A stretch of 64,000 nt of DNA from Bacteroidales bacterium (lineage in GTDB: Bacteria; Bacteroidota; Bacteroidia; Bacteroidales; VadinHA17), in contig JADJLX010000003.1 in assembly GCA_016709865.1 (NCBI GenBank), positions 1 through 64,000 on the forward strand, read 5' to 3'. Position numbers and translations under genes: made by a program. Positions 17,576 through 64,000 of the stretch are shown here, piece after piece (within the stretch, counting starts at the first letter, position 1; every line of letters starts with the position of its first letter). A model generated the notes under the pieces. That model had not been told where the DNA came from. It did no database searches and was given only the letters and a program-made list of their open reading frames with translations.

Positions 17576-17578
17576 TCA

Positions 17579-18907: not shown

Positions 18908-19983
18908 GAATACAGTTAGATATAGGACATCCTGCACATGTTCATTATTTCAGACATTTCATCAGACTGATGAAGGAATCAGGTCACGAAATTTTTGTTA
19001 CAGCCCGGGATAAGGAAATGACTCATATTCTTCTAAAAAAATTTAAAATTAATTATATATCCCGGGGAAAAGGGGGTAAAGGAGTCTTGGGTAAAATTTT
19101 GTATCTTTTTAAAGGCGACTACATACTCTTAAAAGCTGCCAAAAGATTCCGTCCAGATTTGTTTCTAAGCTTTGCATCACCATATGCAGCTCATGCAGCC
19201 TGGCTATCCGGGAAACCGCATATAACTTTAGATGATACTGAGATTGCCAGGATTGGCCAGTTTTTATATACTCCATTTACTGACAGTATTCTTAATCCAA
19301 GTAGTTATAACAAACTAAAAAAGGAGAAACATATACCATTTAAAGCTTTATTGAATTAAGCTCTCTTCATCCAAAATACTTCAGGCCAGATTCTCAGTTC
19401 TGGAGGATTTAGGATTAGATATTAATGAAAAATATGTAATTATCAGATTTGTTTCTTGGCAGGCAAATCACGATTTCAGATTTAAGGACTTAATCATGAG
19501 ACGAAACTCAAAATAGTTGATCAGATAGGCAAACATGCTACCGTTTTTATTTCATCTGAAGGACGACTCCCGGACGAGTTGCAGAAATATAAATTAAAGA
19601 TCTCACCTGAAAAAATGCATGATGCCCTATACTTCGCATCATTACTATTTGGTGAAAGTGGAACAATGACTTCTGAATGTGCAATGCTTGGCACTCCGGC
19701 AATACAAATCAGTGGTTTACCCAAGGGAACTATCGGAACACTGACTGAGCAACAAAAATATGATTTGGTTTATATATATGAAAAGTATAGTGAGAGTATT
19801 TTGGATCAGGCATTAGATTTAATAAACGATCCGGGAACGAAAGAAAAGTGGATGAGTAAAAAAGAAAAAATGCTTTCAGAAAAGATTGATATTACCGCAT
19901 TTATGGTTTGGTTTGTAACTAATTTCCCGGAAAGCAAGGGAATTATAAAAGAGAATCCTGATTTTCAACTCAAATTCAAATAG
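18904..19983 (+). CDS. DUF354 protein, GT-B fold (frameshifted)
   Basis: MRIQLDIGHPAHVHYFRHFI is the DUF354 start. 'KRFRPDLFLSFASPYAAHAA', 'ITLDDTEIARIGQFLYTPF', 'KYVIIRFVSWQANHDF' and 'YFASLLFGESGTMTSECAML' follow. Related by fold to UDP-GlcNAc 2-epimerases; likely a sugar nucleotide or glycosyl transfer role. Breaks near 19350, 19400 and 19495. ATGA overlap with the DUF362 gene. Confidence 0.82.
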
Positions 19984-19985
19984 AA

Positions 19986-20434
19986 ATGGATAAAATACTT
20001 ATACTGTCACCTCATACAGACGATGCGGAACTAGGTTGCGGAGGATCAATTATCAGATTTATTGAAAGCGGGAAAGAAATCCTCTGGATGGTCTTTTCAA
20101 CCCGGATCTTGTAATCGGACCATCATTGAATGATTTTCATCAGGACCATACAATTGTAGCAAATGAAATGGTAAGGGCATTTAAATCTACTGCCAGTATA
20201 ATCAGTTATGAATTGCCCTGGAATCATATCTCATTTAACACACAGTTTTTTATCAAACTGAATCCTGCCCAAATTGATGGGAAAGTTGATTTACTTAATT
20301 CATATCATTCTCAAATTGAAAAAAAGAGATCATAGTTTTCAAAAGAATTTATTGAAGGATTGGCTCGTATAAGAGGTGTCCAGGTATCGGCAGAATTCGC
20401 AGAAGCATTTGAAGTTATTAGATGGATAAATTAA
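19986..20434 (+). pseudogene. PIG-L/LmbE-family deacetylase with apparent internal deletion
   Basis: Starts MDKILILSPHTDDAELGCGG, the zinc-binding HxDD motif of PIG-L deacetylases. After 'LWMVFST' the sequence jumps to 'NPDLVIGPSLNDFHQDHT' (the late HxxxH-type metal motif) with a change of frame. Family members have roughly 70 more residues between these motifs, so a stretch of about 200 bases seems missing near 20095-20105. It then reads to 'GVQVSAEFAEAFEVIRWIN'. Metal ligands at both ends are kept. It could be a real deletion or an assembly collapse. Start of the next gene overlaps its end. Confidence 0.72.
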
Positions 20435-21127
20435 AATTTAATGAATGCTCTCCAATATATCAAAAGGTTTATTCTAAAACAGGAATTCATTTTCCGGAAA
20501 GGCTAAATATTTTTTATACAATTCTGTTAAGTGGTAAGATATTGTCAGAATTCAAATTCAAAAAACACTTAAGACCAGGCCCGAACTTTACAAATATCTT
20601 AATGATAGTTTTATATATGATAAGGCTTTGATTATTTAGAATTTGGTGTCTACAAAGGGCATTCGATGAGAGACTGGCTGACTATTAACAAAAATGAGTT
20701 CTCACGTTTCTTTGGCTTCGATTCCTTTGTCGGGCTGCCAACAGATTGGAGCAAATTATCCGGGACAAAACAAAAAGGATGTTTTACAACATATGGAGAA
20801 ATTCCGTATGAACTGACACTGGATAAAAGAGTCAGCTTTGTTAAGGGTACCTTTCAGGAGACTCTCGTTTCTTTCATAAAGCAGGTTGAATTGCAGGAAC
20901 AACTTGTTATTAATCTGGATGCTGATCTCTATACTTCAACACTTTATGTTTTAGCTACTCTTGATAAGTACATTCACCCCGGGACAATCATTATTTTTGA
21001 TGAATTTACATCAGGTGATGAATGCAGAGCACTTGTGGATTATTCAGGTTCGTTTTTAAGAGAGTATGAAATAATAGCCGTTTCAGGAATTTCTTTTCAG
21101 AAAGTTGCAATAAAAATTATTAAATGA
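20422..21127 (+). CDS. Class I SAM methyltransferase, TylF/MycF-like (frameshifted)
   Basis: MDKLKFNECSPIYQKVYSKT, break near 20625, then 'DYLEFGVYKGHSMRDW' (motif I in its 'EFGVYKG' form), 'FFGFDSFVGLPTDWS', 'VKGTFQETL', 'LVINLDADLYTSTLYVLATL', 'TIIIFDEFTS'. This is the macrocin O-methyltransferase-like fold, which methylates sugars in known antibiotics. ATGA overlap with the ATP-grasp gene. Confidence 0.82.
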
Positions 21128-22179
21128 AGAAACTTAAAGTATTGATTACCGGGATAGGTGCACCCGGGATCGGCGGAACTATTTACTCGTTGAATAATAA
21201 TTTTGACAAAAGAAGAATTGAAATAATTGGTACTGATGTGAATAATGATGTGGTTGGTAAATATTTGTGTGCAAAAAGTTATAAAATTGAATCTGCAAGT
21301 AACCCTTCCAACTATTTGGAATCATTATTTAATGTATGCAAAAAAGAGAGCCCCGATATATTACTACCTCAGAATACAGCTGAATTAATTACCCTGTCGA
21401 GTAATAAAACTGATCTTCATAATATTGGAACACGGGTTATAATTTCTGACACGATTGCATTAATACAGGCGAACAATAAATACAATCTATTGGAAATCTG
21501 CAAAACGAATAAAATAGCCACACCAAAATATAAGTTGGTTAATAATTTTAAGGATTTAAAAGAAGCTGCCACTGAGCTTGGTTGGCCGGAAAGAAAGATT
21601 GTAGTAAAACCGCCAGATTCCAATGGCATGAGAGGTGTCCGTGTAATAGATGAGAGCATTGACCTGAAAAAGCAGTTTTTTGAAGAGAAACCCACAAGTT
21701 TTGTATTACGATGGGCGATATGTTCAGAAATATTGGTAATGAGTTTCCAGAGTTGATAATTTCGGAATATTTGCCAGGTGATGAATATTCTGTGGATGTT
21801 TAAGAACGAAATCAAATTTAACAGTTATACCAAGAAAAAGGGCATGATCAGATCCGGTATAACCTTCAATGGCAAAATTGAAAAGAATGAAAAGATTATT
21901 TCAATTTCAGAGAAGCTTGCCGGAATACTTGGCCTGTCATTCTGTTTCGGATTTCAGTTTAAATCAGATGAAAATAACCAACCCCAAATATTAGAATGCA
22001 ATCCAAGAGTTCAGGGAACAATGGTCATGTCAACAATTTGTGGGGCTAATATAATTTACGGATCTGTAAAGGCAGTATTAAATGAAGAGATCCCGGATTT
22101 TAGTATTGACTGGAACAGTATTTTTTACCGTTATTGGGGTGGTGTTGGAGTTAATCAGCAAGAAGTTGTTTTTATATGA
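21124..22179 (+). CDS. ATP-grasp enzyme, carbamoyl-phosphate-synthase-like (frameshifted)
   Basis: MKKLKVLITGIGAPGIGGTI gives a pre-ATP-grasp dinucleotide-like fold. Then 'YLCAKSYKIESASNP', 'ATPKYKLVNNFKDL', 'RKIVVKPPDSNGMRGVRVI', and, past breaks near 21710-21830, 'EFPELIISEYLPGDEYSVDV', 'LGLSFCFGFQFKSDE', 'QILECNPRVQGTMVMS'. The 'ECNPRVQG' ending is the metal-binding strand of this family. Members of this clade ligate carboxylates; here perhaps an amino acid to a sugar acid. ATGA overlaps on both sides. Confidence 0.82.
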
Positions 22180-22823
22180 TTTTGGATAGTAAAACCCTTT
22201 TTTCTTTTAAGTACTACTTATTTGATCTTGATAATACGATTTACGACGAAAACCATTATCTGTTCGAAGTTTATAAAAGAATTGCCCAGAGAATTGAAAT
22301 GCAGACCACAATAGACTCTGATTCAATTCTGGAAGATATTAAGTTTCATTTTTTAAATTCCGGGCGGGAGAATTTATTTAATTCAATAATTGTAAAGTAC
22401 AATCTTGATAAAAAATCATTAGACGAGTTTCTACTAATTCTTAGGACCATTCGGCTGGACTTCAAACTCGAGATTTTCCAGGCGGTTGAACACTTTACTA
22501 TTAAACTACTTGAACATAAAAGAAGATTTTGGTTGTGACCAACGGAAATCAAAATCAGCAAAAAACAAGATTGACCAAATTAACTGGAAAGGACTGGATA
22601 ATCATATTCAGTTTGTTCTGGCAGAGGAAATTGAAAGGAAACCTTCAAAAGGAGCTTTTAAATATATAAAGGAAAATACAAGCTTGAAGAGTCTAAATCA
22701 TTAATGATAGGTGATTCTGAAACAGATTCTAAATTTGCTGAAAATTCGAATATTGAATTTGTAAATGTCTCATTTATATTAGAATACTGGCACTTATTTG
22801 AAAAAGATGAAATTATTATTTGA
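22176..22823 (+). CDS. HAD-superfamily hydrolase (frameshifted)
   Basis: 'YYLFDLDNTIYDENHYLFEV' holds HAD motif I (DxDxT). Past a break near 22515, 'ILVVTNGNQNQQK' is motif II (TNGN), a Lys lies in 'IERKPSKGAF' (motif III region), and 'LMIGDSETDSKFAENSNI' is motif IV. Ends 'HLFEKDEIII'. Probably a sugar-phosphate or nucleotide phosphatase feeding this locus. It overlaps the start of the last glycosyltransferase. Confidence 0.82.
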
Positions 22824-23979
22824 TCTTTCAGCAACCCAAGCCGAAAATGGTATTTTAAATCACGGAGGTAGCGAATATGCGAAAGCAGTATTTTATAAAT
22901 TACTTGAGACTAATCACAGGTCTGTTTCAGTCTTTTATAATCATAATATTGTCCTTGAGAACAAAATAGCAAGATTTAATCAGGAAATATTCACTTCATA
23001 CCGTCGCCACACACGACATAACATCAATTATTGACTACATAAAAACAGAGAATATCAATGTATTCTATTCTGCACTTATTAAAGAAGATTATGTTCCCTA
23101 ATTGAAATGCAATCGGAATCTTTCAAAGTAATAATAACAATTCACGGACTGCGGGCTCTCGAATTACCCTCAGATAAATATGAATTGTATTACTGTCATA
23201 CTTTGAAAAGTAAAATAAAATTTTTTTATAAACAGTTTTTCAAGAATGGGTATAATAAAAACGTTCTTAGTTACTATAAAAAATTTCTTGATGCATCACA
23301 AATTATTACAGTATCTGATCACTCAAAAAGATCATTACTTTCTTTTTTCCCGGAAGTATCTTCACAAAGAATTCAGGTTTTATATAGCCCATTAATTTAT
23401 TATGGGAAAGAATCTAAATCTGATACTATTGCTAAATTATCTTTAGCTCCCAGAAAATATTTTTTAGTTCTTTCCGGATCAATCTGGACTAAGAATAGTA
23501 TCAGAGCTGTTAGGGCCTTTGATGAACTTATCTCAGACAGGCATGATCTTGCAGGTATAAAAATGATAATAACAGGAGTTAGTAAACTGATTTATAAAAT
23601 TAAAAATCAACAGAACTTTATATTTACCAGTTACCTGGACCGGGATACCTTGGAGGATCTTTACCAAAATGCACTGGCATTAGTATATCCAACTCTCAAC
23701 GAAGGTTTTGGATATCCGCCCCTTGAAGCCTTAAAATATGGTGTCCCGGTGCTGGTTTCAGAAATCGGACCAGTCCCGGAGGTGTGCGGCAATGCAGCAT
23801 ACTATTTTGATCCTCATAGTGAAGATGAGATCAAAAATTCTCTTTCTTCGGCTATCCTTAATCCAGGTCTTTTTTCAGATAAAAATATCCAATCCAGGAT
23901 CTCCCGATATACTCTGATAAAGGAAAAACAGCAAAGCGATTTGGATAAAATGATTAAGATCCTGATTGGTGATCAGTAA
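22807..23979 (+). CDS. Glycosyltransferase family 4 (frameshifted)
   Basis: MKLLFDLSATQAENGILNHG followed by 'GSEYAKAVFYKLL'. Break(s) near 23005-23105, then a clean 290 residues: 'VIITIHGLRALELP', 'ASQIITVSDHSKRSLLSFFP', 'FLVLSGSIWTKNSIRAVRAF', 'ALVYPTLNEGFGYPPLEALK' (E-x7-E motif) and 'ISEIGPVPEVCG'-type loop. Last gene of the plus-strand polysaccharide block. Confidence 0.88.
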
Positions 23980-23992
23980 TCAGTAAGTTATT

Positions 23993-24020
23993 GCACCCTG
24001 CACCCTGCATCTTGCATCCC
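23993..24020. repeat. Heptamer array GCACCCT/GCATCNN
   Basis: Four 7-nt units (GCACCCT twice, GCATCTT, GCATCCC) in the gap between two convergent genes, ending three bases before the peptidase stop. First of the array series in the 24-28.7 kb region. Confidence 0.85.
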
Positions 24021-51186: not shown

Positions 51187-52356
51187 ATGAATCTGATACC
51201 ATATTCAGTTACCACTCTGTGTCTGGAAAGTTATTTTATAAAGATCACTTCCAGGAGCAAAATTATCTACTGGATAATCATAGGAATCATTGTATCCGGT
51301 ATTGCAGTACTCCCATTTATTTATGTCGATGTATCCGTTCAGGCAAGAGGATATTTTCAGTCGGAGATTGAAAAACAGGTTGTATATACCCCCTTCCACG
51401 GAAGAGTTGTCTTTGCATCATTCCATAACGGCGACAAAGTTGGAAAAGGAGACACACTTCTTATAATCGATTCCGAAGCAATACGGGCACAGCAGTCAGC
51501 ACTGAAGAAAAGAATTGATGAGAACGATGCATCAATAAACGATCTTGAAATACTGACTCTTCTTGATTCATCGATGCTTCATTCTGAAGAGGTTATGTTT
51601 GCTTCAAAAAGATATCAGGCTGAATTTGAGAATGTAGTGAATCAGCATGAAATGCAGTATCAGAAATTTCAGAAACGAAAGACTGAGCATGAAAGAAATG
51701 AACTTCTTTTTAAGCAGAAGATAATACCTGAGACTGATCATGAAAACAGCTCATATGCCCTGAAATCTGAAAAGGACAATCTGAATCAGGTCCTGATCTA
51801 TCAGAAATCTGTGTGGCAGAACGATCTTACAGCAAGAAAAAATGAAGCTGTAAGATTGCAGGCTGAATATAAACAATGTATCGAAGAGCTTAATAACAGG
51901 ATTGTTTTAGCCCCAACAAGCGGAGAGGTAATCCAGACCTCCGATATCCAGACAGGGAGTGTTGTCAGTCAGGGACAGATGATTGCAGAGTTATCGCCTG
52001 AAGGGGAGCTTATAGCCACATGCTTTGCCAGGCCAACAGATATCGGTCTGATCCGCGAGAACCAGAAAGTGAAGATCCAGGTAGATGCATTCAATTATAA
52101 TGAATGGGGAATGCTTACAGGCAATATTATTGATATTTCAGATGATATGATAGTTGAGAACGGATCAACGGCATACTTCAGGATCAAATGCAAACCTGAT
52201 CAGACCTTCCTTTCTCTCAGGAACGGGCATAAAGCATATATAAAGAAAGGTATGAGCATCAATACAAGGATCTTCGTGATACGTCGAAGCCTTTATAATC
52301 TGTTATTCGATAAAGCGGATAAATGGTTCAATCCATATACATATAAACCTGAATAA
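51187..52356 (+). CDS. HlyD-family periplasmic adaptor for peptide export
   Basis: 389 residues, intact. One N-terminal membrane helix ('IIYWIIIGIIVSGIAVLPFI'), then the biotinyl-lipoyl-like half-motif ('GRVVFASFHNGDKVGKGDTL'), a long coiled coil (residues ~95-235), the second half-motif ('RIVLAPTSGEVIQTSDIQTG') and a beta-barrel ('RPTDIGLIRENQKVKIQVDA'). This is the membrane-fusion partner of a type I/bacteriocin ABC exporter, which follows after a nonamer array. Together they would span the envelope with an outer-membrane channel not present here. Confidence 0.9.
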   Translation: MNLIPYSVTTLCLESYFIKITSRSKIIYWIIIGIIVSGIAVLPFIYVDVSVQARGYFQSEIEKQVVYTPFHGRVVFASFHNGDKVGKGDTLLIIDSEAIRAQQSALKKRIDENDASINDLEILTLLDSSMLHSEEVMFASKRYQAEFENVVNQHEMQYQKFQKRKTEHERNELLFKQKIIPETDHENSSYALKSEKDNLNQVLIYQKSVWQNDLTARKNEAVRLQAEYKQCIEELNNRIVLAPTSGEVIQTSDIQTGSVVSQGQMIAELSPEGELIATCFARPTDIGLIRENQKVKIQVDAFNYNEWGMLTGNIIDISDDMIVENGSTAYFRIKCKPDQTFLSLRNGHKAYIKKGMSINTRIFVIRRSLYNLLFDKADKWFNPYTYKPE

Positions 52357-52377
52357 GAAAGATGAGTTCTAAAAAAC

Positions 52378-52482
52378 CCTTTGTGTTCTTTGTGTTATCC
52401 TTTGTGCTCTTTGTGGTTAATGGATTTCTTTTTACCACAAAGGACACTAAGGTCTTCACGAAGGACACAAAGGGAAATTCGT
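52378..52482. repeat. Inverted nonamer-like array between adaptor and exporter genes
   Basis: CTTTGTGTT, CTTTGTGTT, ATC, CTTTGTGCT, CTTTGTGGT (52380-52427), short spacer, then ACCACAAAG, GACACTAAG, GTCTTCACG, AAGGACACA, AAGGG. Fold-back is possible over about 40 bases. The C39 start codon is eight bases further on. Confidence 0.8.
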
Positions 52483-52489
52483 TAGTTGT

Positions 52490-54659
52490 ATGCTGATAAA
52501 AGTAAAACAAAGAGATATAACCGATTGCGGTGCAGCATGTCTGGCCTCGGTAGCTGCATATTATAATCTTGCCCTGCCTGTTGCCAAGATCCGGCAGTTT
52601 GCAGGAACCGATAAGAAAGGAACGAATGTTTTGGGATTGGTTGAAGCAGCAGCAAAGATGGGGTTTCTGGCAAAAGGAGTCAGGGGAGAATGGGACTCTC
52701 TCTTTAAAATACCCAAGCCTGCCATAGCACATGTGATTGTAAAAGAGGCCCTTCATCATTATGTTGTATTAATCAAGGCAACAGAGAAGTATATTGAAAT
52801 AATGGATCCAGCCGATGGAGAGCTTCACAGAGTTACACATGAAGAATTCAAAAAGCAATGGACAGGTGTCCTGGTACTGATTGCCCCCGGCGAAAAAGTT
52901 TACAATAGGCAATGAAAAAACATCAATTTCCGAACGGTTCTGGCGACTCATCAAACCTAACAAAGGGATTCTGCTTCAGTCGCTGGTAGGAGCGCTGGTA
53001 TTCTCCGTACTGGGTCTGGCAGCATCTTTATATGTAGGGAAACTTGTTGATAATGTATTACCGGGAGGGAACCTCAGCCTGCTGAATCTGCTAGGCATTG
53101 CGATGTTACTTATAATTATACTGAGACTGCTGCTAAGTTATTTCCAGACAATATTTATTCTTAAGGCCGGACAGCGGATAGATGCAACACTAATCCTGGG
53201 ATATTATCAGCATCTGCTTAAGCTTCCCCAGACCTTTTTCGACAATATGCGCACAGGTGAGATAATTTCGAGGATAGGGGATGCAGTGAAGATAAGGGTA
53301 TTTGTGAATGAAGTCTCGGTAAGTCTTATCCTTAACGTATTCATATTAATAGTATCATTTGTGCTGATGTTCTCTTTCTACTGGAAGCTGGCACTGATAA
53401 TGCTTTTTGTTGTGCCGTTTTATGCATTAATATATTTTATCTCGAACAGGTTAAACAGGAAAGTCCAGAGAAAGGTTATGGAGAAGGCTGCAGATCTTGA
53501 GGCACAGCTTGTCGAATCGCTTAATGCAGCAGGAACTATAAAGAGATTCGGTCTGGAAGAGTTTTCCAATCTGAAGACAGAGACACGGTTTGTGAATCTG
53601 CTGGAGATAATTTATAAGTCAGGATTGAATGGCATTTTCTCATCCAGTTCAACAAGTCTTCTTTCGCAGGTGATTACGATACTTGTTTTATGGATAGGAG
53701 CCGGGTATGCAATAAGTTCGCAGATCACACCCGGAGAGCTGCTCTCATTCTATTCAGTGGTAGGATATTTTACCGGTCCGGTTACAGGCATTATTGGCTT
53801 CAACCGCACCCTTCAGGATGCAAAGATAGCAGCAGACAGGCTCTTTGAGATCTTTGACCTGGAGATTGAAGATGAATCGAATAAGATTGATCTGAAGCCA
53901 GAGATGGCCGGAGACATCAGGTTTGAGAATGTGAAGTTCCGTTACGGCACCAGGGTGGATGTATTTGATTCACTTAATCTAACAATAAAGAAGGGAGATA
54001 TAACAGCAGTGGCAGGGGAGAGCGGATCGGGGAAGTCGACACTCATATCGTTGCTTCAGAATCTGTATCCTGTACAATCGGGGCATATTAAGATTGGCAG
54101 TCACGACCTCAGGCATCTTACCAATTCATCGCTTCGAAAGGTAGTATCGGTTGTCCCGCAGAAGATCGACCTTTTTGCGGGGAATGTCCTGGAGAACATA
54201 GCTGTCGGCGAGTTTCAGCCCGATATGGAGAGAGTGCTGGAAGTCTGTGAGAAGCTTGGCATGATGAAGTTCATAGAGCAGCTCCCGCATGGATTCAACA
54301 CATACCTGGGAGAGAACGGAGCCACCCTCTCGGGCGGTCAGCAGCAAAGGATTGCAATTGCGAGAGCGTTGTACAGGGATCCGGAGATCCTGATCCTCGA
54401 TGAAGCGACCTCATCACTCGACTCGATGGCAGAGACATTTGTTCAGAATACGATTGAGTTATTACGGAAATCGAATAAGACAGTTATAGTTATTGCGCAC
54501 AGGTTATCGACGATCAGTCTGGCCCAGAGAATAATAGTGCTTGAAAAGGGAGAGATAGTCCAGGATGGCACCTTTTCCGAACTGGCGAATACACCGGGAG
54601 CCTTCAGGAGGATGTGGATGCATCAGACGATAGATGTAACGGAGACAATAAAAGTATGA
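52490..54659 (+). CDS. C39 peptidase-containing ABC transporter (bacteriocin/peptide exporter), one frameshift
   Basis: About 722 residues once joined at ~52,900, where one base is missing in GAAAAAG-TTT. N-terminal C39 peptidase: catalytic Cys in 'DITDCGAACLASVAAYY', His in 'EALHHYVVL', Asp in 'IEIMDPADG'. Then a transmembrane domain ('VGALVFSVLGLAASLYVGKL') and an ATPase with Walker A 'GESGSGKST', signature 'LSGGQQQRIAIARALY' and Walker B 'ILILDEATSSLD'. It cuts double-glycine leaders and exports the peptide. Likely substrates are the two peptides at 55148 and 56367. Confidence 0.93.
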
Positions 54660-54677
54660 ACCCAAAATACCAATAGC

Positions 54678-55022
54678 ATGAAAGTATTTGAATATCTCGA
54701 TCGCATCAGCAGGATGCACAAGCTGGTGTCGAGGCGCAAGACCGGCACCCCTGAAGAGTTTGCCTGTCAGCTGGGCGTCAGCAGGACCAGTCTGTATGAA
54801 CTGATTGATGAGTTACGTTCGCGCGGAGTGCCGATAGCTTACTCGAAGTCGGCGAAGACCTTTTTCTACAGTCAGCCCTACGACATAGCTGTCACCTGTT
54901 CCCTTCGTCCGCTCACCTACACAGAAACCAAAGAAAATGAAGGCGGCTCGGTAATTTTCCCCAAAATCCTTTTTTTCCGTACGCTGTCCTCCGACCTTAG
55001 TATGGTAACGTTACCATGCTAA
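54678..55022 (+). CDS. Small HTH regulator (first of a related pair)
   Basis: MKVFEYLDRISRMHKLVSRR then 'KTGTPEEFACQLGVSRTSLY' and 'ELIDELRSRGVPIAYSKSA' form a winged or simple HTH; 'TFFYSQPYDIAVTCSLRPLT' ends the recognisable part. The last ~25 codons run through the regulatory element at 54961-55024, so the true C-terminus may be shorter. It shares 'TGTPxxxAxxxGxSxxS' with the gene at 59083. Bacteroidota peptide loci often have such a gene, presumably controlling peptide expression. Confidence 0.75.
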   Translation: MKVFEYLDRISRMHKLVSRRKTGTPEEFACQLGVSRTSLYELIDELRSRGVPIAYSKSAKTFFYSQPYDIAVTCSLRPLTYTETKENEGGSVIFPKILFFRTLSSDLSMVTLPC

Positions 55023-55024
55023 AA
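54961..55024. promoter_or_regulatory. Upstream element of peptide gene 1, with 16-bp perfect palindrome
   Basis: Contains CCAAAATCCTTTTTTTCCGT, ACGCT, TCTCCGA-like text, and ends ATGCTAAAA. The perfect palindrome ATGGTAACGTTACCAT is at 55002-55017. The same element, minus the perfect palindrome, recurs at 56206-56273 before peptide gene 2. Confidence 0.65.
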
Positions 55025-55147
55025 CCCCGGGCATGAGAAAGAAATGGGGGAGAAATTAAAATTTAAAATAGTTATCTGCATAAGATTATTATTCCGGATA
55101 GATATTCGGCGCGGATTAATTATTTTTACTAATGAAATATGAATATC

Positions 55148-55378
55148 ATGAAAAATTCAGAATTACGTTTGATGGGAGTTCAGGAACTGAATCCCGTTGA
55201 AATGCAGGAAACTGATGGTGGTGTAGTATTAATCATCCTTGGTGTATGCGCTGCTGTATTGGCGTTGTCTTCATGTACAATAAATTTTAACACACAAATT
55301 GGGGGTTCAGGTAATACAATAAATGTAACACAGGTGGCGGATAGTACTATGAATGGGAATTGCAGATGGCAACTGTAG
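55148..55378 (+). CDS. Double-glycine leader peptide 1 (bacteriocin-like)
   Basis: Start chosen at 55148 (not the in-frame ATG at 55139) because it makes the leader exactly 25 residues, the same as in peptide 2: MKNSELRLMGVQELNPVEMQ-ETDGG. Core begins 'VVLIILGVCAAVLALSSCTI', a hydrophobic helix with two Cys and a lipobox-like LSSC, then a polar Asn/Thr-rich tail ending 'MNGNCRWQL'. 76 residues. The C39 exporter is the expected processing enzyme. Bacteriocin activity is inferred only. Confidence 0.82.
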   Translation: MKNSELRLMGVQELNPVEMQETDGGVVLIILGVCAAVLALSSCTINFNTQIGGSGNTINVTQVADSTMNGNCRWQL

Positions 55379-55423
55379 AACCTATGGAATTAGCAAAAGT
55401 TTAATATGCCAATCGGATATTGA
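55366..55423 (+). other. Conserved mini-ORF tail 1 ('LAK..NMPIGY')
   Basis: ATG at 55366 gives MATVEPMELAK; then a two-base loss near 55399 leads into 'FNMPIGY' and TGA at 55421. The same ending, with conservative changes, follows peptide 2 (56552-56609). Presumably a very small gene or the C-terminal end of one. Confidence 0.4.
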
Positions 55424-56003
55424 TGAAAATTATTACATAGTTAAAGCAGGTGTAAAAGATGCACCTGCTTTATTAGTATTTTTATATTTTTTATTTGTTA
55501 TACTTGATATTGCTACAACTTATCTGGCTTCACCAGATTTGAAATATGAAGATAATTGGATTATCGTTATTTACATTTTAGTTGGGTACAAACTATCATA
55601 TTCTATGGTTTTTTGCTATCCTATTAAGTCTGTAATTTATCATAGCAATGAAATATCTTAAAAACACTGGGGATAAAACAAGGCAAATTTCCTTTCGGTT
55701 TTTATCAATTATCCAAAATAAATGGTTATCCATGTGTTGTTTTGTCTTAGGATGTTTCTATTCCCATCTGTTTTATTCGGTCTTTGTATCATGTAATAAC
55801 TAACATTATATATATATATTAAAAATAGATAATGTTTTTGAAAGATTTCTTATTGGTATATTAATAAAGTAATAATTGGTTATCTCTCTTTTTATTTTTG
55901 TCATGGATTTTTTATAATGGTCGCAATCCTTTATACAGTATTTATAGTGAAGGGAATAGAGAGAAAGTCTCTGAAAGTCTCAGAGGTAAAAGACTCATTA
56001 TGA
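55424..56003 (+). pseudogene. Membrane protein paralogue, frameshifted (copy 1)
   Basis: ATG at 55424 gives MKIIT, a one-base loss follows, then 'VKAGVKDAPALLVFLYFLFV' and 'ILDIATTYLASPDLKYEDNW', almost identical in pattern to the intact protein at 58006 ('FVSLDLFTTYLASPDLKYEG'). Later text in changing frames ('GCFYSHLFYSVFVSCNNYL', 'VAILYTVFIVKGIERKSLK') matches the C-terminus of 58006 over the whole length. Several breaks. Role unknown; perhaps immunity or peptide-handling, by location. Confidence 0.75.
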
Positions 56004-56019
56004 TAACTATTTACTAACT

Positions 56020-56071
56020 CCGGACTTCAGTCCGGAGCAGATATAATGAATAGAGAACCGGGCTTTAGCCC
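56020..56071. repeat. REP palindromes (first group)
   Basis: CCGGACTTCAGTCCGG (56020-56035) and CCGGGCTTTAGCCC (56058-56071), perfect short palindromes of the same types that surround the transposase at 57289. Confidence 0.8.
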
Positions 56072-56205
56072 AAAACCTTCACAGTATACCAGTCGTGATT
56101 CATTCAGAACTAGTTAATGAAGGTTTTTTAATCTAACTACATCTGGATACTATAACACCTATTTTTTACAGGTCTTTACTTTATTTTAAATTCTTTTTTT
56201 ATACT

Positions 56206-56273
56206 CCAAAATCCTTTTTTCCGTACGCTACTCTCCGAAATTTATTTAGCACTTAAAGGAGTTTATGCTAAAA
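56206..56273. promoter_or_regulatory. Upstream element of peptide gene 2
   Basis: CCAAAATCCTTTTTT-CCGTACGCTAC-TCTCCGA, ending ATGCTAAAA, aligned with 54961-55024. The last part pairs AGCA with TGCT around AAAGGAG. It sits 94 bases before the leader start (124 in peptide 1). Confidence 0.65.
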
Positions 56274-56366
56274 TTGATCTACCAGGTCCTAGACCTTCAA
56301 ATACTTGAATATACATTAAATGAAATTTTGATTAGGTCATTAGTATTCACTTAACAACTATTTATT

Positions 56367-56531
56367 ATGCAAAAATTTAATTTTAATTCAATGGGTGTTC
56401 ATGAGATGAATACCCTTGAAATGCAGTCAACCGATGGTGGTTTCGTTCTCATAATCCTTGGAGTTTGCGCTGTTGCTTTAACTCTGTCTTCATGTATAAC
56501 AACATATGCGACCTTGACTGAGATTGACTGA
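56367..56531 (+). CDS. Double-glycine leader peptide 2 (bacteriocin-like)
   Basis: 54 residues. Leader of 25 (MQKFNFNSMGVHEMNTLEMQ-STDGG) and a 29-residue core 'FVLIILGVCAVALTLSSCIT-TYATLTEID'. Leader and core both align with peptide 1: 'MGVxExNxxEMQxTDGG' and 'VLIILGVCA...LSSC'. The tail is much shorter than in peptide 1. Confidence 0.82.
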   Translation: MQKFNFNSMGVHEMNTLEMQSTDGGFVLIILGVCAVALTLSSCITTYATLTEID

Positions 56532-56551
56532 AATGGTTTGTAAATCAAAAA

Positions 56552-56609
56552 CCTTCTTCAGGAGAGTATAGATCTAGCAAAAAGATATAATATGCCAATA
56601 GGATATTAG
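56552..56609 (+). other. Conserved mini-ORF tail 2 ('LAKRYNMPIGY')
   Basis: In one frame: 'NLLQESIDLAKRYNMPIGY' then TAG. An ATG at 56534 would fit if one A were missing from the A-run near 56550. Matches tail 1 at ten or more of its last fifteen residues, all changes conservative. Confidence 0.4.
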
Positions 56610-56632
56610 TGCGGATATTTAATCACCTAAAA

Positions 56633-56785
56633 ATGAAGAAACTTCAAATAACAAAACGAGATGTAAAGGTTTTCTTTCTAGGCATGGTAGCTGCATTCCT
56701 GATAGTACTTATCTATGAATGGGATGATTTTGTGGATGGTTTAAAGGGAGGATTTGAAAGTGCGACAGTCGAGATTAGTAAATGA
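56633..56785 (+). CDS. Small membrane protein, 50 residues
   Basis: MKKLQITKRDVKVFFLGMVA-AFLIVLIYEWDD, one membrane helix followed by 'FVDGLKGGFESATVEISK'. Directly downstream of peptide 2 and of mini-ORF 2. Proteins of this shape often accompany Bacteroidota bacteriocin genes; immunity is a guess. Confidence 0.65.
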   Translation: MKKLQITKRDVKVFFLGMVAAFLIVLIYEWDDFVDGLKGGFESATVEISK

Positions 56786-56865
56786 ATTACTGATCTCCCA
56801 CCACGGACTAAAGTATATGGTTAGAGGAAGGCAGGTGCTATTACAGCATCAGGGTCATTCACTAA

Positions 56866-57274
56866 CCACGGCTTTTAAGCCGTGGTAGGCAGAATCGGAA
56901 GGAATAGGGCTTTAGCCCGGAACCTTACATCACACCTAATATGTATACATATAATAATATGCTTTCTGATTCATCCTCCTCCGCAAGAGGTGATTATAAG
57001 CGGTTTTGGGCTAAAGCCCTTTCCCTGAGACTTATCTCCAACCACGGACTGAAGTCCGTGGTTAATGGATGCCCTGCACGATCAAGGTATCAGTGGCAAT
57101 CACTAAGCAGGGTTTTTAACGGACTGAAGTCCTCAGCTAGTGGAAGACCATGATGATTACAGCATCAGGTTATTAACTAACCACGGCTTCTAAGCCATGG
57201 AGGAGACCAACCTGAGTAACCACGGCTTTTAAGCCGTGGAAGTTGAAACACGCTATAAAACAGGGCTTTAGCCC
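56866..57274. repeat. REP/BIME cluster, upstream of the transposase
   Basis: Perfect or near-perfect palindromes: CCACGGCTTTTAAGCCGTGG (56866-56885, 57220-57239), CCACGGACTGAAGTCCGTGG (57042-57061), CCACGGCTTCTAAGCCATGG (57181-57200), GGGCTAAAGCCC (57008-57019), GGGCTTTAGCCC (57263-57274). The block 57154-57239 (86 bp) is repeated without change at 57821-57906. No gene other than noise lies in 56,786-57,288. Confidence 0.92.
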
Positions 57275-57288
57275 AAAACCTTAATACT

Positions 57289-57726
57289 ATGCCGTACGTA
57301 AAGATCTGGATTCACTGTGTTTGGGGAACTAAAAACCGTAAACAATTCCTTTTGGGTGAGAAAAAGGCAGAAGTGATCAGTCATATCCGGAACAATGCCA
57401 ATGAAAAAGGTATATATATAGACTTTATAAATGGACATACAGAGCATCTTCACTGCCTTCTTTCTTTAAACCAGGACCAGACATTATCCAAAGTGATGCA
57501 GCTGATTAAGGGAGAATCCTCTTTTTGGATTAATAGAAATTTGGTAGTAAAGGATAAATTTGAATGGGCTGAAGAGTATTTTGGTGTTTCTGTGAGTGAG
57601 TCCCATGTTCATCGGGTTAGGGAATATATTAAAAATCAGGAACAGCATCACACGAAAAAATCATGGCAGGAGGAGTATGATGAATTTATTGAGAAGTACG
57701 GATTTAACATTTTTTATGATAAGTAA
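57289..57726 (+). mobile_element. IS200/IS605-like Y1 transposase, RAYT-like by context
   Basis: 145 residues, intact: MPYVKIWIHCVWGTKNRKQF start; HUH motif in 'INGHTEHLHCLLSL' (His-Leu-His); catalytic Tyr in 'HRVREYIKNQEQHH'. Length and motifs fit single-strand Y1 transposases. It is bracketed by REP palindromes and by two identical 86-bp repeats, the typical setting of REP-associated tyrosine transposases (RAYT). It is a single-gene element; no TnpB. Confidence 0.9.
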
Positions 57727-57749
57727 TCTATTTACATTTTATAGGTTTT

Positions 57750-57939
57750 GGGCTAAAGCCCTTTCTCAGAGACTGATCACCAACCACGGACTGAAGTCCG
57801 TGGTTAACTGATGCATTGCATGATTACAGCATCAGGTTATTAACTAACCACGGCTTCTAAGCCATGGAGGAGACCAACCTGAGTAACCACGGCTTTTAAG
57901 CCGTGGTTTGCAGAACCTACAAGACCCGGGCTTTAGCCC
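57750..57939. repeat. REP/BIME cluster, downstream of the transposase
   Basis: GGGCTAAAGCCC (57750-57761), CCACGGACTGAAGTCCGTGG (57784-57803), CCACGGCTTCTAAGCCATGG (57848-57867), CCACGGCTTTTAAGCCGTGG (57887-57906), GGGCTTTAGCCC (57928-57939). Same order as upstream. Confidence 0.92.
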
Positions 57940-58005
57940 AAAACATACATAACACGCATTATAACAATACCTCAATCAATCTAAGTATAATAAAAGTGAC
58001 TATTT

Positions 58006-58602
58006 ATGAAAATCCTCCACCACATCAAAGCCGGCTCCAGGTTAGTGCCCGTTTCACTAATTCTGGTATACATCCTCTTTGTCAGTCTGGATCTGTTTAC
58101 AACATACCTGGCATCGCCTGATCTGAAGTATGAAGGTAACTGGATTGTCAGGTACTTTAATCTGGGCTGGACACAAATCTTAATTCTTGTTCCGGTTAAT
58201 TCTCTTCTGGAAATTCTGCTTTTGTATCTGGGATTAAGTTTTACTCATTATTACTATCTGAATAACAGGGCAGGCTCCGGTTCCGGATTAATCAGAAGGA
58301 TTTTCAAAAACAAAAAACTTGTATTCAGTTTAATTGCAATCGGGTATTTTTACAACCATCTGTTCTTTTCAGTTTACATTACATTCAGCAATTACCTCAG
58401 TCATCTTTACATAAACAAAATAGAAAACATTTTTAGTGGAATTTCTGATTATTATATAGGTATTGAGATCATGTGTGGTAAATTATTTTTCCCGGCTGTG
58501 CACTTACTAACAATAACTGCATCAATATTCTATATTTTATTTATGGTGAAAAGAATAGAAAGAAACTACCCATTTGAAGGTCATTCAATAGTCATTCAAT
58601 AG
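58006..58602 (+). CDS. Multi-pass membrane protein (intact copy of the family at 55424)
   Basis: 198 residues, start MKILHHIKAGSRLVPVSLIL. About four hydrophobic segments. Conserved 'FTTYLASPDLKYEGNWIVRY' shared with 55424, 'YFYNHLFFSVYITFSNYLSH' and 'FYILFMVKRIERNYP' also shared. No family I recognise. As the intact member it is the better candidate for a functional protein in the peptide locus. Confidence 0.75.
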   Translation: MKILHHIKAGSRLVPVSLILVYILFVSLDLFTTYLASPDLKYEGNWIVRYFNLGWTQILILVPVNSLLEILLLYLGLSFTHYYYLNNRAGSGSGLIRRIFKNKKLVFSLIAIGYFYNHLFFSVYITFSNYLSHLYINKIENIFSGISDYYIGIEIMCGKLFFPAVHLLTITASIFYILFMVKRIERNYPFEGHSIVIQ

Positions 58603-59082: not shown

Positions 59083-59313
59083 TTATACAACATGTTTTAA
59101 ATAATTTTCTGCTGTCTCATCTGTCAGATACGAAACTGTCAGATGGCAGAAGTTTAGATTGACGCCTTCGTCTTTTAACTCCCTGACAAATCTTTTAACG
59201 CTTCTGTCGCTGATTCCAAATCTGAAAGCCAGATCTGCCGGTGTTCCGGTGCATTTTAACAATGCAAGCTTAAGTAACCGGATCTTGAAATTCTTTTTAT
59301 CCAAATTAGTCAT
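59083..59313 (-). CDS. Small HTH regulator (second of the related pair)
   Basis: 76 residues: MTNLDKKNFKIRLLKLALLK then 'CTGTPADLAFRFGISDRSVK' and 'RFVRELKDEGVNLNFC'. Shares the TGTPxxLA..G.S..S core with the gene at 54678 but lacks its C-terminal extension. Minus strand, facing the peptide genes. Confidence 0.75.
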   Translation of the reverse strand: MTNLDKKNFKIRLLKLALLKCTGTPADLAFRFGISDRSVKRFVRELKDEGVNLNFCHLTVSYLTDETAENYLKHVV

Positions 59314-60008: not shown

Positions 60009-61181
60009 TCATCTTTTTATCAGCCACCACAATTTCCCAATCCGGTGCGGATAATACATCAACACCTTCAGGGTACTTGTACATTTATACCTGTTCTTCA
60101 TAAACCTTACAGAAGGGAATATGTCTCCCAGAACAAACAGGATCTTTCGGTGCAGTCCCGGAATATCTGAGAGGACGTGATGGTAGAAATGTGATTTATC
60201 TGCCGGGGGATTATCTTTAGGACTCTTTAGGAAAAACAGAAATTTATTCAGATATGAAGGATTTAGATTTTTAGAGATAAAATCATTAATCAGGGCCGGA
60301 AAAGGGATCTCCCAGAATATGCGAAGCGGCTCAAGATGATTTGCAAGCATCTCCTGCATTCCTGATTCTGATGCCAGTTTTATAAGATCAGCATTTAATA
60401 TTTCTTCTCTGTGTTTTTCCAGAAGAACAACAAGATCGGTATAAAGCCGTAGCTGCGATTCATTGTTCAACTCATGCAGATACAGATGCTTAACCAGATA
60501 GAGGAAAAAGATCTGCGGCTGCGGAATCCATGCTGTTTCATCTTTGATCTTAATCTCAAAACCTGTATCATAAAACAGGCTTGTCAGAGTCCTGTTCTTC
60601 CCCCCGAATAGTTCGTGGTGGATCTCAAGCGAGGTCCCGTTCTTTAAGAGTGAGGGGAGGTGCTTACCGGTGTCGGCTAAAATCAGCTTATGAAAAAATG
60701 ATTTAACAGGAAGCGATTCATACCCGTCCTGAATCAAAATATTCCGTGCCCTGATGCAATCAGCCCGTGAGATAAGAACATCTACATCTGACATCTGGCG
60801 TAGTCCGGCATTACCATAGATACTGTTTTCTAGCGCCATCCCTTTCAGCAGTACTGTCTTTATCTTTTCTGCATTCAGCAACCGAAGAGCATTGGCAAGA
60901 GATTCTGTATTAAAAGTGTTCCGGCTAAGACTTTGCAGAAGTGATCCCCTAAGTATAACAGCAACATCATTGGGGATTGAAGAATTCAGGTTGTGTTTTT
61001 CAAGATTATTCCATGCCAGGGCTGTAACTCCATGAGCATTTGCCAGCTTCCTGAAATAATCCCAGTCTTTTATTTCAGGTACAAGCAGCCTGATCTTTTT
61101 CAAATGCTCCTCACTGAAATCAAGACGGCACAGTTCAATCAGAAGCCTCTCCTCGTCGCGTATATTCAGTTCACTGCTCAT
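60009..61181 (-). CDS. Nucleotidyltransferase-fold protein (NTP_transf_5-like), RiPP-associated type
   Basis: 390 residues, intact. Core 'TVLLKGMALENSIYGNAGLR' and 'QMSDVDVLISRADCIRARNI' match the large nucleotidyltransferase-like family (PF14907): Lys-Gly before the acidic DVD metal pair. The second half ('EIHHELFGGKNRTLTSLFY') and a helical C-terminus follow. In lasso-peptide-related clusters such a protein sits beside an HPr-kinase-like one, and both modify the peptide or its phosphate. Its last four bases overlap the ABC gene (ATGA). Molecular target not shown here. Confidence 0.8.
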   Translation of the reverse strand: MSSELNIRDEERLLIELCRLDFSEEHLKKIRLLVPEIKDWDYFRKLANAHGVTALAWNNLEKHNLNSSIPNDVAVILRGSLLQSLSRNTFNTESLANALRLLNAEKIKTVLLKGMALENSIYGNAGLRQMSDVDVLISRADCIRARNILIQDGYESLPVKSFFHKLILADTGKHLPSLLKNGTSLEIHHELFGGKNRTLTSLFYDTGFEIKIKDETAWIPQPQIFFLYLVKHLYLHELNNESQLRLYTDLVVLLEKHREEILNADLIKLASESGMQEMLANHLEPLRIFWEIPFPALINDFISKNLNPSYLNKFLFFLKSPKDNPPADKSHFYHHVLSDIPGLHRKILFVLGDIFPSVRFMKNRYKCTSTLKVLMYYPHRIGKLWWLIKR

Positions 61182-62965
61182 CTGTTAAACCTGCTGCTCT
61201 GCCTGGTAAACATTGTGTAGTACATTCCTCCTTTTTTCATCAGTTCATCGTGGGTACCCGTCTCGGTTATCGCTCCCTTATCAAGTACAATTATCCTGTC
61301 GGCAAGGGTTACATTTGTGAACCGGTGACTTATAAGAATCGATGTACGGTCTTTTACTATCTCCCTGAACCTGCTGAAAATCTCATGCTCTGTATCGGCA
61401 TCGAGTGAACTGGAGGGCTCGTCAAGTATCAGCACCGGAGAATCACGATAAAGTGCACGCGCAAGTGCCAACTTCTGCCACTCTCCCCAGCTTAGTTCGC
61501 GGCTGTCATCGAAAAGATTTCCTATGATTGTGTCGTAGCTGTTTGGAAGATTACTAATCAGATTATCGACCCCTGTTACCGAGGCTGCGCTCTTTATCTT
61601 CACTGCATCTGCAGGAGAATTTATGTTTCCCAATCGTATGTTTTCTCCTGCCGAGAGATTGTAGAGCATAAAGTCCTGGAATACAACCGAGAACTGCTTC
61701 CTGTACTCTGCAGGCTCAATATGTTTTATGTCAGTATCGTCATATTTTACTGTGCCTGAATCGGGATCATAAAGTCTGCACAGCAATCTCACAAGCGTAC
61801 TTTTCCCGGCACCATTCGGACCAACGAGTGCAACAACTTCCCCTTTCTTTATTTTGAAAGAAATGTTATTGATAGTACTGCTGTTGTTTCCCGGATAGGT
61901 GAAGGAGAGGTTCTCTGCAGCGATCTCATTAACAAGAGGGTGTATAATGGCAACCGGTTCTTTTGCAGTGATACCCTCTTTAAGGTTCAGGAATTCGAAT
62001 GTGTCGCCAATAAACAGTCCGTCTTCATATAATCCGGCCAGCGAACTGAAGAGATCTTTTATATATAGCATTCCCTGCCTGAAAGCCAGGAGGAACATTG
62101 CCATCTCTCCCAAAGAAATCGTTTTGTTTATTGTTTGACGTGCGATAAACAATAATGTAACAAGCAGAGCCGAGGCTTTAAAAAGATTTGAGACAAGTTC
62201 TATTGTTGTTCTTTTCCTTATAATGTTAACTTCCTCATCTTTCTGTTTCAGGAAAGATGTTTTGAAAAGGTCCTTAAAGTAATTTCCCAATCCGAAAAGT
62301 CTCAGCTCCCTCGATGGCCTGTCGCCTGTAAGAAGCCAGTTGAAATAAGCCGATTTTCTTGATTCCGGTGTCTGCTTCCTCTGGAAATTATACAGCACTT
62401 CAGCATAATGAAGTCTGAGCCAAATTCCGGGGATATTGGCAACAATAAGAAGAACAGCCAGGCTCCAGTGAAGAGTAAGTATCAGTCCGGCCATAAGCAG
62501 TAGCGAGATAAATGCCCTGAAAACAGAGACGATGTTATTAAGGATACTGTTTGGCCGCCACGGGGCTTCCCTTGAAGCCCTTGTGAGACAGTCGAAATAC
62601 TCAGGCTGTTCAAAGCTGATAAGGTCAAGTTTTATGGCTTTGGAATGGAGAAGATCATACATATAGACCTCAAGCTTCAACGACTGTTTCTTCCTGACAA
62701 AATTGCTGAGATCGGATGTGGCTTCATCGAGAAACCATACGATAACTACTGCTACAACCGGCCAGAGAATAATCTCCAGCGGGGTCACCTGATGGGCAGA
62801 TGCAGCTTCTGTTATTGCATCAATCACACCTTTCAGAAGCCACACAAGTAACAAAGGAAAGATGCTTCTTATTACAGAAAGAAGAGTGTTGGCCAGTGCC
62901 CAGCCAGGGGCACTTCGCCAGACAAGTTTAAGGGATTCTCTGAATAGTTTAAGTTTCTCTCTCAT
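61178..62965 (-). CDS. ABC exporter (transmembrane plus ATPase domains)
   Basis: 595 residues, intact. Membrane half: 'APGWALANTLLSVIRSIFPL', 'IILWPVVAVVIVWFLDEATS', 'LLLMAGLILTLHWSLAVLLI'. ATPase half: Walker A '[15 protein letters not shown]', signature 'ELSWGEWQKLALARALY' (Trp in place of the usual Gly), Walker B 'PVLILDEPSSSLD', H-loop 'ISHRF'. No C39 domain. This resembles export half-transporters of lasso and other RiPP clusters, possibly also giving self-protection. Works as a homodimer. Confidence 0.88.
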   Translation of the reverse strand: MREKLKLFRESLKLVWRSAPGWALANTLLSVIRSIFPLLLVWLLKGVIDAITEAASAHQVTPLEIILWPVVAVVIVWFLDEATSDLSNFVRKKQSLKLEVYMYDLLHSKAIKLDLISFEQPEYFDCLTRASREAPWRPNSILNNIVSVFRAFISLLLMAGLILTLHWSLAVLLIVANIPGIWLRLHYAEVLYNFQRKQTPESRKSAYFNWLLTGDRPSRELRLFGLGNYFKDLFKTSFLKQKDEEVNIIRKRTTIELVSNLFKASALLVTLLFIARQTINKTISLGEMAMFLLAFRQGMLYIKDLFSSLAGLYEDGLFIGDTFEFLNLKEGITAKEPVAIIHPLVNEIAAENLSFTYPGNNSSTINNISFKIKKGEVVALVGPNGAGKSTLVRLLCRLYDPDSGTVKYDDTDIKHIEPAEYRKQFSVVFQDFMLYNLSAGENIRLGNINSPADAVKIKSAASVTGVDNLISNLPNSYDTIIGNLFDDSRELSWGEWQKLALARALYRDSPVLILDEPSSSLDADTEHEIFSRFREIVKDRTSILISHRFTNVTLADRIIVLDKGAITETGTHDELMKKGGMYYTMFTRQSSRFNR

Positions 62966-62984
62966 TTTAGCGCTTCTTCAATTT

Positions 62985-63056
62985 TTTGCCCCCTTCCCCC
63001 TAAAGGGTGTATAATCTAGTATACAATTTAGCCCCTCTTTAGGGGGGTTGGGGGGC
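62985..63056. repeat. GC-rich inverted repeat between exporter and peptidase genes
   Basis: CCCCCTTCCCCCTAAAGGG at 62990-63008 pairs with CCCTCTTTAGGGGGGTTGGG at about 63034-63053, with 'TGTATAATCTAGTATACA' (itself palindromic) in the middle. Related to the element at 50698. It might attenuate transcription between the two genes. Confidence 0.75.
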
Positions 63057-63062
63057 GGCGGA

Positions 63063-63530
63063 TCAAAATATTTTCTTCTTCAACATTATAAATATCACCC
63101 TAAATCGATTCAATATATAATTCGGTCTTTTATTAATCCTGATATCCGCCAGCACCTGATTCTCCCCGCTTGTCTCAGCTCTCACAATCCGTCCCACAAT
63201 CATTCCAATATTCACAGGTTTATCTGCATACGCATTACTATCTCCCCGTGCAACATATTTAGAAACCCCATCCTGATTAATAATTTTAGTCAGCCTGTGC
63301 ACAACAAGTCCGTTCTCTCTTTTCACAGCAATTATTTCACCCGGCACAGGAAATCCCTTCAGTTTAATTGGTTCAATAAGAAGCATTGATCCTGGTTTGA
63401 TACATGGATACATGCTGTAGCCGTGTGCTTTTATCCTGATAGTTTTCCCTTCCGATAACAGTGTAAGGCTCATATCCTTGACCAGTGTCTGTTTATTAAG
63501 ATACTTATTCATTTTCCAGGATATAATCAA
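63063..63530 (-). CDS. S24/S26-family signal peptidase-like protein, Ser-His type
   Basis: 155 residues as read (start MIISWKMNKYLNK; MNKYLNKQ also possible). Catalytic Ser in 'GYSMYPCIKPGSMLLI', His in 'GLVVHRLTKI' in the place of the usual Lys, and 'KYVARGDSNAYADKPV' as the third conserved box. The Ser-His dyad is that of the SipW/ER-type signal peptidases. The N-terminus has no clear helix; one hydrophobic stretch lies near the C-terminus. Such peptidases recur next to PqqD-like and kinase-like genes in Bacteroidota RiPP loci. Confidence 0.82.
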   Translation of the reverse strand: MIISWKMNKYLNKQTLVKDMSLTLLSEGKTIRIKAHGYSMYPCIKPGSMLLIEPIKLKGFPVPGEIIAVKRENGLVVHRLTKIINQDGVSKYVARGDSNAYADKPVNIGMIVGRIVRAETSGENQVLADIRINKRPNYILNRFRVIFIMLKKKIF

Positions 63531-64000
63531 TTACACTTCTGTCGGGTTTGAATGAGAGCTTCACAACCGGAATTGTCCCGCACATTATCGATACTGATCC
63601 CAGAAGTCTGGCAACAAGATCGTGACCCCAGTTATGCTGGATGCAGTTTGCCATAACAAGACTAACTGCCTGGGCTCCTTTTACAGGGACAATCCTGTTT
63701 TCAATACCATGCTCAATAATAAATATTTTGTGAAGAGGCGACTCATGAGGCTCATCATTATTATAAACAGGGGTGTTATGCATTACATAACCCATTCCGC
63801 TGTTTCTCACTATAAGTCTGTCATCGTGAATCACCTTGCCCCCTGTTTTATCCCATAATCCGGCCATTGTAGATTTGCCTTTGCCCGAAACACCGCTGAA
63901 AATATAACCATGTCCGAGATTATTAACTCCTGATGCATGGATCATTATATCACCATTTATTACTGTAAGGTAATACAGGATTAATCCGTCAAGTGGATAC
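63505..64000 (-). CDS. HPr-kinase-like protein (partial, runs off the window edge)
   Basis: P-loop 'IFSGVSGKGKSTMAGLW' followed by 'IHDDRLIVR' (acidic pair), then 'HGIENRIVPVKGAQAVSLVM' and 'LARLLGSVSIMCGTIPVVKL'. Frame continues upstream to 64,000 ('YPLDGLILYYLTVINGDIM'), so the N-terminus is outside. The kinase core is the one used by lasso-peptide tailoring kinases, which phosphorylate the peptide. Overlaps the peptidase start. Confidence 0.82.
   Translation of the reverse strand, partial: YPLDGLILYYLTVINGDIMIHASGVNNLGHGYIFSGVSGKGKSTMAGLWDKTGGKVIHDDRLIVRNSGMGYVMHNTPVYNNDEPHESPLHKIFIIEHGIENRIVPVKGAQAVSLVMANCIQHNWGHDLVARLLGSVSIMCGTIPVVKLSFKPDRSVIDYILENE

Follow-up and report, generated by a model that had tools for sequence, protein, structure and literature searches.

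Linear polyphosphorylated peptides (LPPs) are a kind of ribosomally synthesized and post-translationally modified peptide (RiPP) made without a cyclase. According to the original report (Popov et al. 2026, PMC13381572), the lpp cluster of P. alginolyticus combines an SpI-like peptidase, a discrete RiPP recognition element (RRE), an HprK-like kinase, an NTP transferase, an MsbA-like exporter and a YxxP precursor. The kinase places several phosphates on Ser3 of the core, the peptidase LppS, assisted by the RRE, cuts behind Thr(-1) and depends on each of S29, H68 and D93, and for the NTP transferase no effect was observed. Its authors call LPPs Bacillota-restricted, patchy and of unknown role, and the term 'Bacteroid' is absent from the text. 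Here we describe a window of 64,000 nucleotides, i.e. the whole analysed stretch of contig JADJLX010000003.1 from a Bacteroidales bacterium, which carries at its edge a four-gene cassette. With a probability of about 0.8, this cassette belongs to the LPP kind, as a variant from Bacteroidales. It would supply maturation and export in a RiPP pathway that depends on an RRE, works without a cyclase and has precursors often encoded in trans, beside genes for cargo of the type IX secretion system (T9SS). The assignment draws on gene order, gene fusions, a candidate precursor family, co-occurrence, linkage to T9SS genes and conserved catalytic residues, all read from sequence.

Open reading frames (ORFs) and family searches of the window recovered all four genes named in the initial annotation, a kinase, a Ser-His peptidase, an ATP-binding cassette (ABC) exporter and a nucleotidyltransferase, adjacent to each other and all on the minus strand. 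The nucleotidyltransferase and exporter genes overlap by 4 bases and the peptidase and kinase genes by 8, while 97 bases separate peptidase and exporter. The HprK-like kinase (63505..64000) is visible with its C-terminal 164 residues; its 5' end lies beyond the window and relatives have about 295 residues. All its profile matches stay below cut-off (Hpr_kinase_C of Pfam, E 0.026; HprK_rel_B, 5e-8, and ScmC, 2.3e-7, of NCBIfam). Its P-loop GVSGKGKST and its HDDR motif fall in columns that are invariant among 15 full-length relatives. A structure model of a full-length relative, from locus L010, has a predicted local distance difference test score (pLDDT) of 88.4 and matches 25 PDB chains at E ≤ 0.001, of which 22 are HprK/P and three PEP carboxykinase. 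Because the predicted fold of this relative matches HprK/P, the HPr-kinase-like reading of the initial annotation, which falls short by profile, is supported at the level of fold.

The S26 peptidase of the archaeal/ER type, a predicted leader peptidase, lies in an ORF of 155 residues (63063-63530); an ATG at 63512 gives a protein of 149 residues (63063..63512). It matches TIGR02228 (E 6.5e-13) just under the cut-off, with 48.8 bits against 51.85 in NCBIfam. S39, H78 and D103 (numbering of the 155-residue ORF) are invariant in 21 aligned sequences and spaced by 39 and 25 residues, so that the earlier description of a signal-peptidase-like enzyme with His in place of Lys holds. The sequence has no transmembrane-like stretch, and the nearest structures to its model are human signal peptidase SEC11 chains. 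The MsbA-like exporter (61178..62965, 595 residues) carries the motifs GPNGAGKS (Walker A), LSWGE and VLILDE; it matches PF00005 with E 5.1e-35, and its best NCBIfam match, MsbA_lipidA (3.1e-79), is under the equivalog cut-off. The nucleotidyltransferase (NTP5; 60009..61181, 390 residues) is a member of PF14907 (E 7.8e-45), as initially annotated, with D131 and D133 invariant in an alignment of 18. Plasmid records gave no match and viral contigs no relative.

As the window ends within the kinase gene, all genes further upstream are taken from relatives, that is from 21 loci found by a scan of genome contigs with the peptidase alignment. Twenty of them are titled as Bacteroidales, Bacteroidetes or Bacteroidota metagenome-assembled genomes (MAGs). 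L003 is filed as a Methanoregulaceae archaeon MAG, and its rnr and kinase are 92-95% identical to those of the Bacteroidales locus L010; it is probably a mis-binned contig. A PqqD-like gene (PF05402 E 1.7e-19 in L010), which the initial annotation had placed upstream, precedes the kinase in 20 of 21 loci, L005 being cut off inside the kinase; this agrees with the annotation of the cassette as one for RiPP maturation and export, and in the window's own genome the gene is expected beyond position 64000. A short extra ORF separates PqqD and kinase in L002, L007, L010, L014 and L018. Beyond PqqD all 20 loci have a divergent rnr, with one intervening gene in L015, L017 and L018 and with ispG and cysS after rnr in L010. 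On the other side, the exporter gene follows the peptidase in 18/18 sufficiently long relatives and NTP5 follows the exporter in 14/18. Searches of 20 of the 21 genomes (L003 was left out) found PqqD in all 20, in 15 as a single copy. Around genome G007, the peptidase profile matched 61/98 genomes of its family and 16/393 of its order (both E ≤ 1e-10) and 10/296 of its phylum (E ≤ 1e-3). Among 60 fetched regions, one of which is a lasso locus, kinase and S26 peptidase form one ORF in 13, and S26 peptidase and exporter in four (L115, L118, L119 and L124), there with the peptidase at the N-terminus. These fusions support a single pathway. In L020 and L021, a restriction-modification insert (about 6582-10008; helix-turn-helix (HTH) protein, N6/N4 methyltransferase and TdeIII-type endonuclease, typed in L020) lies between kinase and peptidase.

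Small ORFs of the loci, clustered without presupposing any motif, yielded a candidate precursor family in ten loci. In L117, L120 and L145 the precursor is found between the PqqD and kinase genes, in L087 and L089-L092 it lies 3' of NTP5, and in L109 and L112 it follows S26 and the gene of a large secreted protein; ten further loci have it between PqqD and kinase. By longest ORF, the precursors measure 37 to 93 residues. Tyr and Pro of the YxxP motif are invariant in 32/32 aligned precursors from relatives, and position Y+20 is Ser or Thr in every one of them. A protein search with the precursor gave 920 clusters at E ≤ 0.001, the best 120 of which are all unnamed or 'hypothetical protein'; solved structures contained no match to the precursor, and NCBIfam none for eight precursors.

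This family tracks the peptidase. A profile of the ten precursors (E ≤ 1e-10) matched 33/98 genomes of the family; 32 of these are among the 61 with S26 and one is among the 37 without it (Fisher 6e-8, a P value that, like all those given here for co-occurrence and T9SS pairing, ignores shared ancestry). The difference persisted without the seven seed genomes (25/54 against 1/37; 1.6e-6), and two more family genomes gave weak matches only (0.003 and 0.009). In the order, 33/393 genomes matched at E 1e-4: 12/16 of those with S26 and 21/377 of the others (2e-11), or 7/11 and 21/377 when five seed genomes are omitted. We searched these 21 S26-negative order genomes together with G704 for PqqD. 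Eighteen of the 22 have it, in 13 directly 5' of the precursor, and these 13 loci contain the kinase in ten cases, S26 in nine, the ABC exporter in seven and NTP5 in one. The presence of kinase and S26 beside the precursor implies that many order genomes scored as negative have a divergent S26 that the first profile missed. A cassette-type exporter gene adjoins the precursor pair in seven loci (L188, L189, L191, L192, L194, L195 and L196). Two relatives (L016 and L007, from genomes G013 and G004) have cassettes that lack NTP5, and the same genomes have NTP5 near a precursor (L193 and L183).

The initial annotation had placed the precursor directly upstream. In the window's clade, however, none lies upstream, and the candidate precursor is encoded in trans, elsewhere in the genome. 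A precursor inside the cassette was considered for this clade and rejected: there is no room, as gaps between longest ORFs shrink to 47 bp (PqqD to kinase, L004) and 0 bp (S26 to ABC, L012). A motif scan of the loci and the window gave 47 matches, none of them convincing beyond the ten precursors and none in the window.

Precursor genes often lie beside genes for T9SS cargo. We took as neighbour the nearest gene 5' of the precursor on the same strand, skipping PqqD and short ORFs, which was possible in 46 of 57 precursor loci; in the other 11 this place was taken by NTP5 (five), an opposite-strand gene (three), a contig end (two) or a gap of 1063 bp (one). The last 140 residues of 32 of these 46 neighbours match Por_Secre_tail (PF18962, E ≤ 0.01), compared with 8/94 controls, i.e. 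other ORFs of at least 400 residues from the same loci, whereas tested neighbours may be shorter (Fisher 1.6e-13). One of 95 control ends, L184:9729-10148, was dropped, being a T9SS gene one short ORF from the precursor. CHU_C, another type IX signal, occurs in 13/94 controls and 1/46 neighbours; when the two signals are taken together, no more than 21/94 controls are positive and the contrast weakens to 9e-8. Further loci came from genomes with two or more precursors; there, 12/17 neighbours carry Por_Secre_tail. These 17 come from 20 extra regions, leaving out L297 (a repeat of L202), L293 (opposite-strand neighbour) and L301 (gap above 600 bp); L283 and L286, shortened by contig ends, were added by hand. 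A whole-protein scan of seven such neighbours found Por_Secre_tail (E ≤ 0.01) in five, one of which also has a right-handed beta-helix. Both L142 and L143 carry a divergent kinase-S26 pair, and in both PqqD immediately precedes the gene of a large protein, with Por_Secre_tail in L142; small-ORF scans of these two loci found no precursor, and they are possibly a further variant.

The cassette thus presents the Ser-His-Asp SpI-like peptidase, HprK-like kinase (below curated cut-offs and supported by fold), NTP transferase and MsbA-like exporter of LPP clusters, and the discrete RRE in 20/21 relatives' loci: the same five enzyme types, with a YxxP leader and no cyclase among the annotated neighbours, as described for LPPs in PMC13381572. 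By the residue numbers given there, the triad spacing of 39 and 25 is that of LppS. Before the expected cleavage site the precursors have the pattern hydrophobic-x-hydrophobic-x-Thr/Ser, comparable to I(-5)xF(-3)E(-2)T(-1) in LppA. Unlike LPP systems, reported as Bacillota-restricted and patchy, the cassette occurs in Bacteroidales and is kept vertically beside rnr in the window's clade; its precursor is often encoded away from the cassette, next to T9SS genes, S26 is in some loci fused to the kinase or to the ABC exporter, and more leader residues separate Tyr from the expected cleavage site. Other systems resemble it in part. Exporters of the peptidase-containing ABC transporter (PCAT) type carry a C39 leader peptidase at their N-terminus, as the four S26-ABC fusions carry theirs, but the fusions have a serine peptidase of S26 instead of a cysteine peptidase of C39, and the leaders are of the RRE type and not of the double-glycine type. 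The SynChlorMet cassette and the HprK-related kinase A/B models of NCBIfam share the association of an HprK-like kinase with a PqqD-like protein, but the cassette scores far below the cut-offs of those models. Among the openly licensed PMC papers listed by literature searches, none showed this Bacteroidales system.

Several observations weigh against an LPP-like assignment. Beyond YxxP, the precursors do not follow the full LPP consensus YxxPxVLxHQxIxFETxxS (PMC13381572) or its spacing: Ser/Thr is five residues further from Tyr, and no Ser is fixed at core position 3. Among the 20 precursors found afterwards, L274 and L280 are without the Tyr of YxxP. No precursor ORF was found in the 64,000-nucleotide window (best profile E 0.5), in 29/61 S26-positive genomes of the family or in 4/16 of the order, where MAGs are incomplete and loss is possible. 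The structure model of the S26 peptidase is only moderate (mean pLDDT 73.9, best template modelling score about 0.5). Our P values take no account of shared ancestry, and 14/46 neighbours lack Por_Secre_tail, three of them matching TsaD. Finally, the best solved matches of the RRE profile are a lasso-type PqqD and TbiB1, so that this profile does not separate LPP from lasso RREs.

The last point touches the initial annotation of the locus as a lasso-like cluster; its cyclase and B2 peptidase would then be encoded elsewhere or missing from the assemblies. Phosphorylated lasso peptides (paeninodin, pseudomycoidin and Bsf) do share RRE, HprK-like kinase, NTP transferase, ABC exporter and a YxxP or WxxP leader with the cassette, as described in PMC10368454 and PMC8498205, and G013, which also holds the cassette, has a lasso-type cluster at a separate locus (L125, G013:C91:52000-70000) with B2, Asn synthetase, PqqD, kinase, sulfotransferase, NTP5 and ABC genes. 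This is the only one of 20 relatives' genomes with the B2 family (PF13471), and there it lies apart from the cassette; in addition, a cluster with B2 would have no need of the S26 peptidase. No macrolactam cyclase of the Asn-synthetase-like type was found among the annotated neighbours of the cassette in L010 and L020, a cyclase not having been searched genome-wide. The initial annotation had also stated that ordinary upstream genes would count against it: in the relatives PqqD is present, but lasso machinery is absent and an ordinary rnr stands beyond PqqD. We therefore rejected the lasso cluster, a reading that is largely refuted and hardly credible by now. The suggestion that the Ser-His S26 peptidase could mature the precursor fared better: it probably does, as such an enzyme is a described part of the cyclase-free LPP kind (PMC13381572).

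It is likewise improbable, though somewhat less so, that no RiPP is involved and that the cassette modifies a sugar or lipid carrier, the short ORF being an unrelated T9SS-linked protein. The exporter scores best to lipid-exporter models, and PMC13381572 places LPPs of Bacilli near capsule genes; however, in 13 of the 22 genomes searched for PqqD this gene adjoins the precursor, the precursor lies inside the operon in several lineages, and it tracks S26 across genomes. A far more serious and more sober competitor accepts the LPP-like pathway and questions the T9SS pairing, which could reflect hitch-hiking or shared regulation, the peptide being a stand-alone secreted signal or weapon. To this we would give a little less than even odds. 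The pairing is known from gene positions, other 5' neighbours occur in the 14 testable loci mentioned, and in L087, L089, L091, L092 and L176 the 5' neighbour is NTP5. On the other hand, pairing with Por_Secre_tail proteins is far above the control rate, on the same strand and often with gaps below 100 bp, and it is seen repeatedly, both in different lineages and at scattered precursor copies of the same genomes (12/17).

Other parts of the window were also inspected. A small HTH-like ORF lies 3' of NTP5 (59083..59313, minus strand); a similar short ORF is found in 18 other loci, and its membership in the cassette is unproven. Separate from the cassette, 51187-58602 is a peptide-export locus with an HlyD-like gene, a C39-type ABC exporter that reads in two frames (52490-52897 and 52881-54659), a small HTH ORF, two double-glycine-type peptides (55148-55420 and 56367-56606) and, within the peptide region, an IS200-like transposase (57289-57726; PF01797 E 1e-24). 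We considered these peptides as substrates of the cassette and rejected them, since they have their own C39 exporter and since L019 and L020 show no such locus next to the cassette. A C39 exporter gene also lies 3' of the cassette in L004, L010 and L016. By eye, without a family search, many ORFs are short or interrupted in 6506-24000 (polysaccharide-type genes) and 30265-50677 (a long repetitive secreted protein), which we attribute to assembly frameshifts or decay.

From the LPP-like assignment, we infer the chemical steps, the cleavage site, export and the role of the peptide as follows. PqqD, expected just beyond the window, would grip the YxxP leader of a short precursor and the HprK-like kinase would phosphorylate the peptide on a Ser or Thr. 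To this phosphate NTP5 may attach a group; by analogy, the nucleotidyltransferase of pseudomycoidin, which adds hexoses to the phosphate (PMC8498205), suggests such a role without proving it. The S26 peptidase, which lacks a membrane segment, would cut off the leader, probably after Ser/Thr at Y+20, and the ABC exporter would transport the product to the outside. Precursors of the window's clade are encoded in trans, mostly directly 3' of the gene of a type IX secreted protein. This position suggests that the peptide works with such proteins, probably at or beyond the outer membrane.

In outline the system is known from LPPs; new are the phylum, the trans-encoded precursors, the fusions and, above all, the T9SS pairing. 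The S26-exporter fusions resemble C39 exporters, with a serine peptidase in the corresponding place. Our findings bring the LPP enzyme set and a large precursor family to Bacteroidales, together with a concrete genetic partner, the type IX secreted proteins, which makes the purpose of LPPs testable in a phylum whose T9SS is well studied. In the boldest reading, a partnership with T9SS cargo that we put forward tentatively and with more doubt than belief, one central LPP-type machine of Bacteroidales modifies several dispersed peptides, each of them devoted to one particular T9SS protein as its ligand, small subunit or anchor. If this is true, LPP-type RiPPs would serve cell-surface assembly and not chemical warfare.

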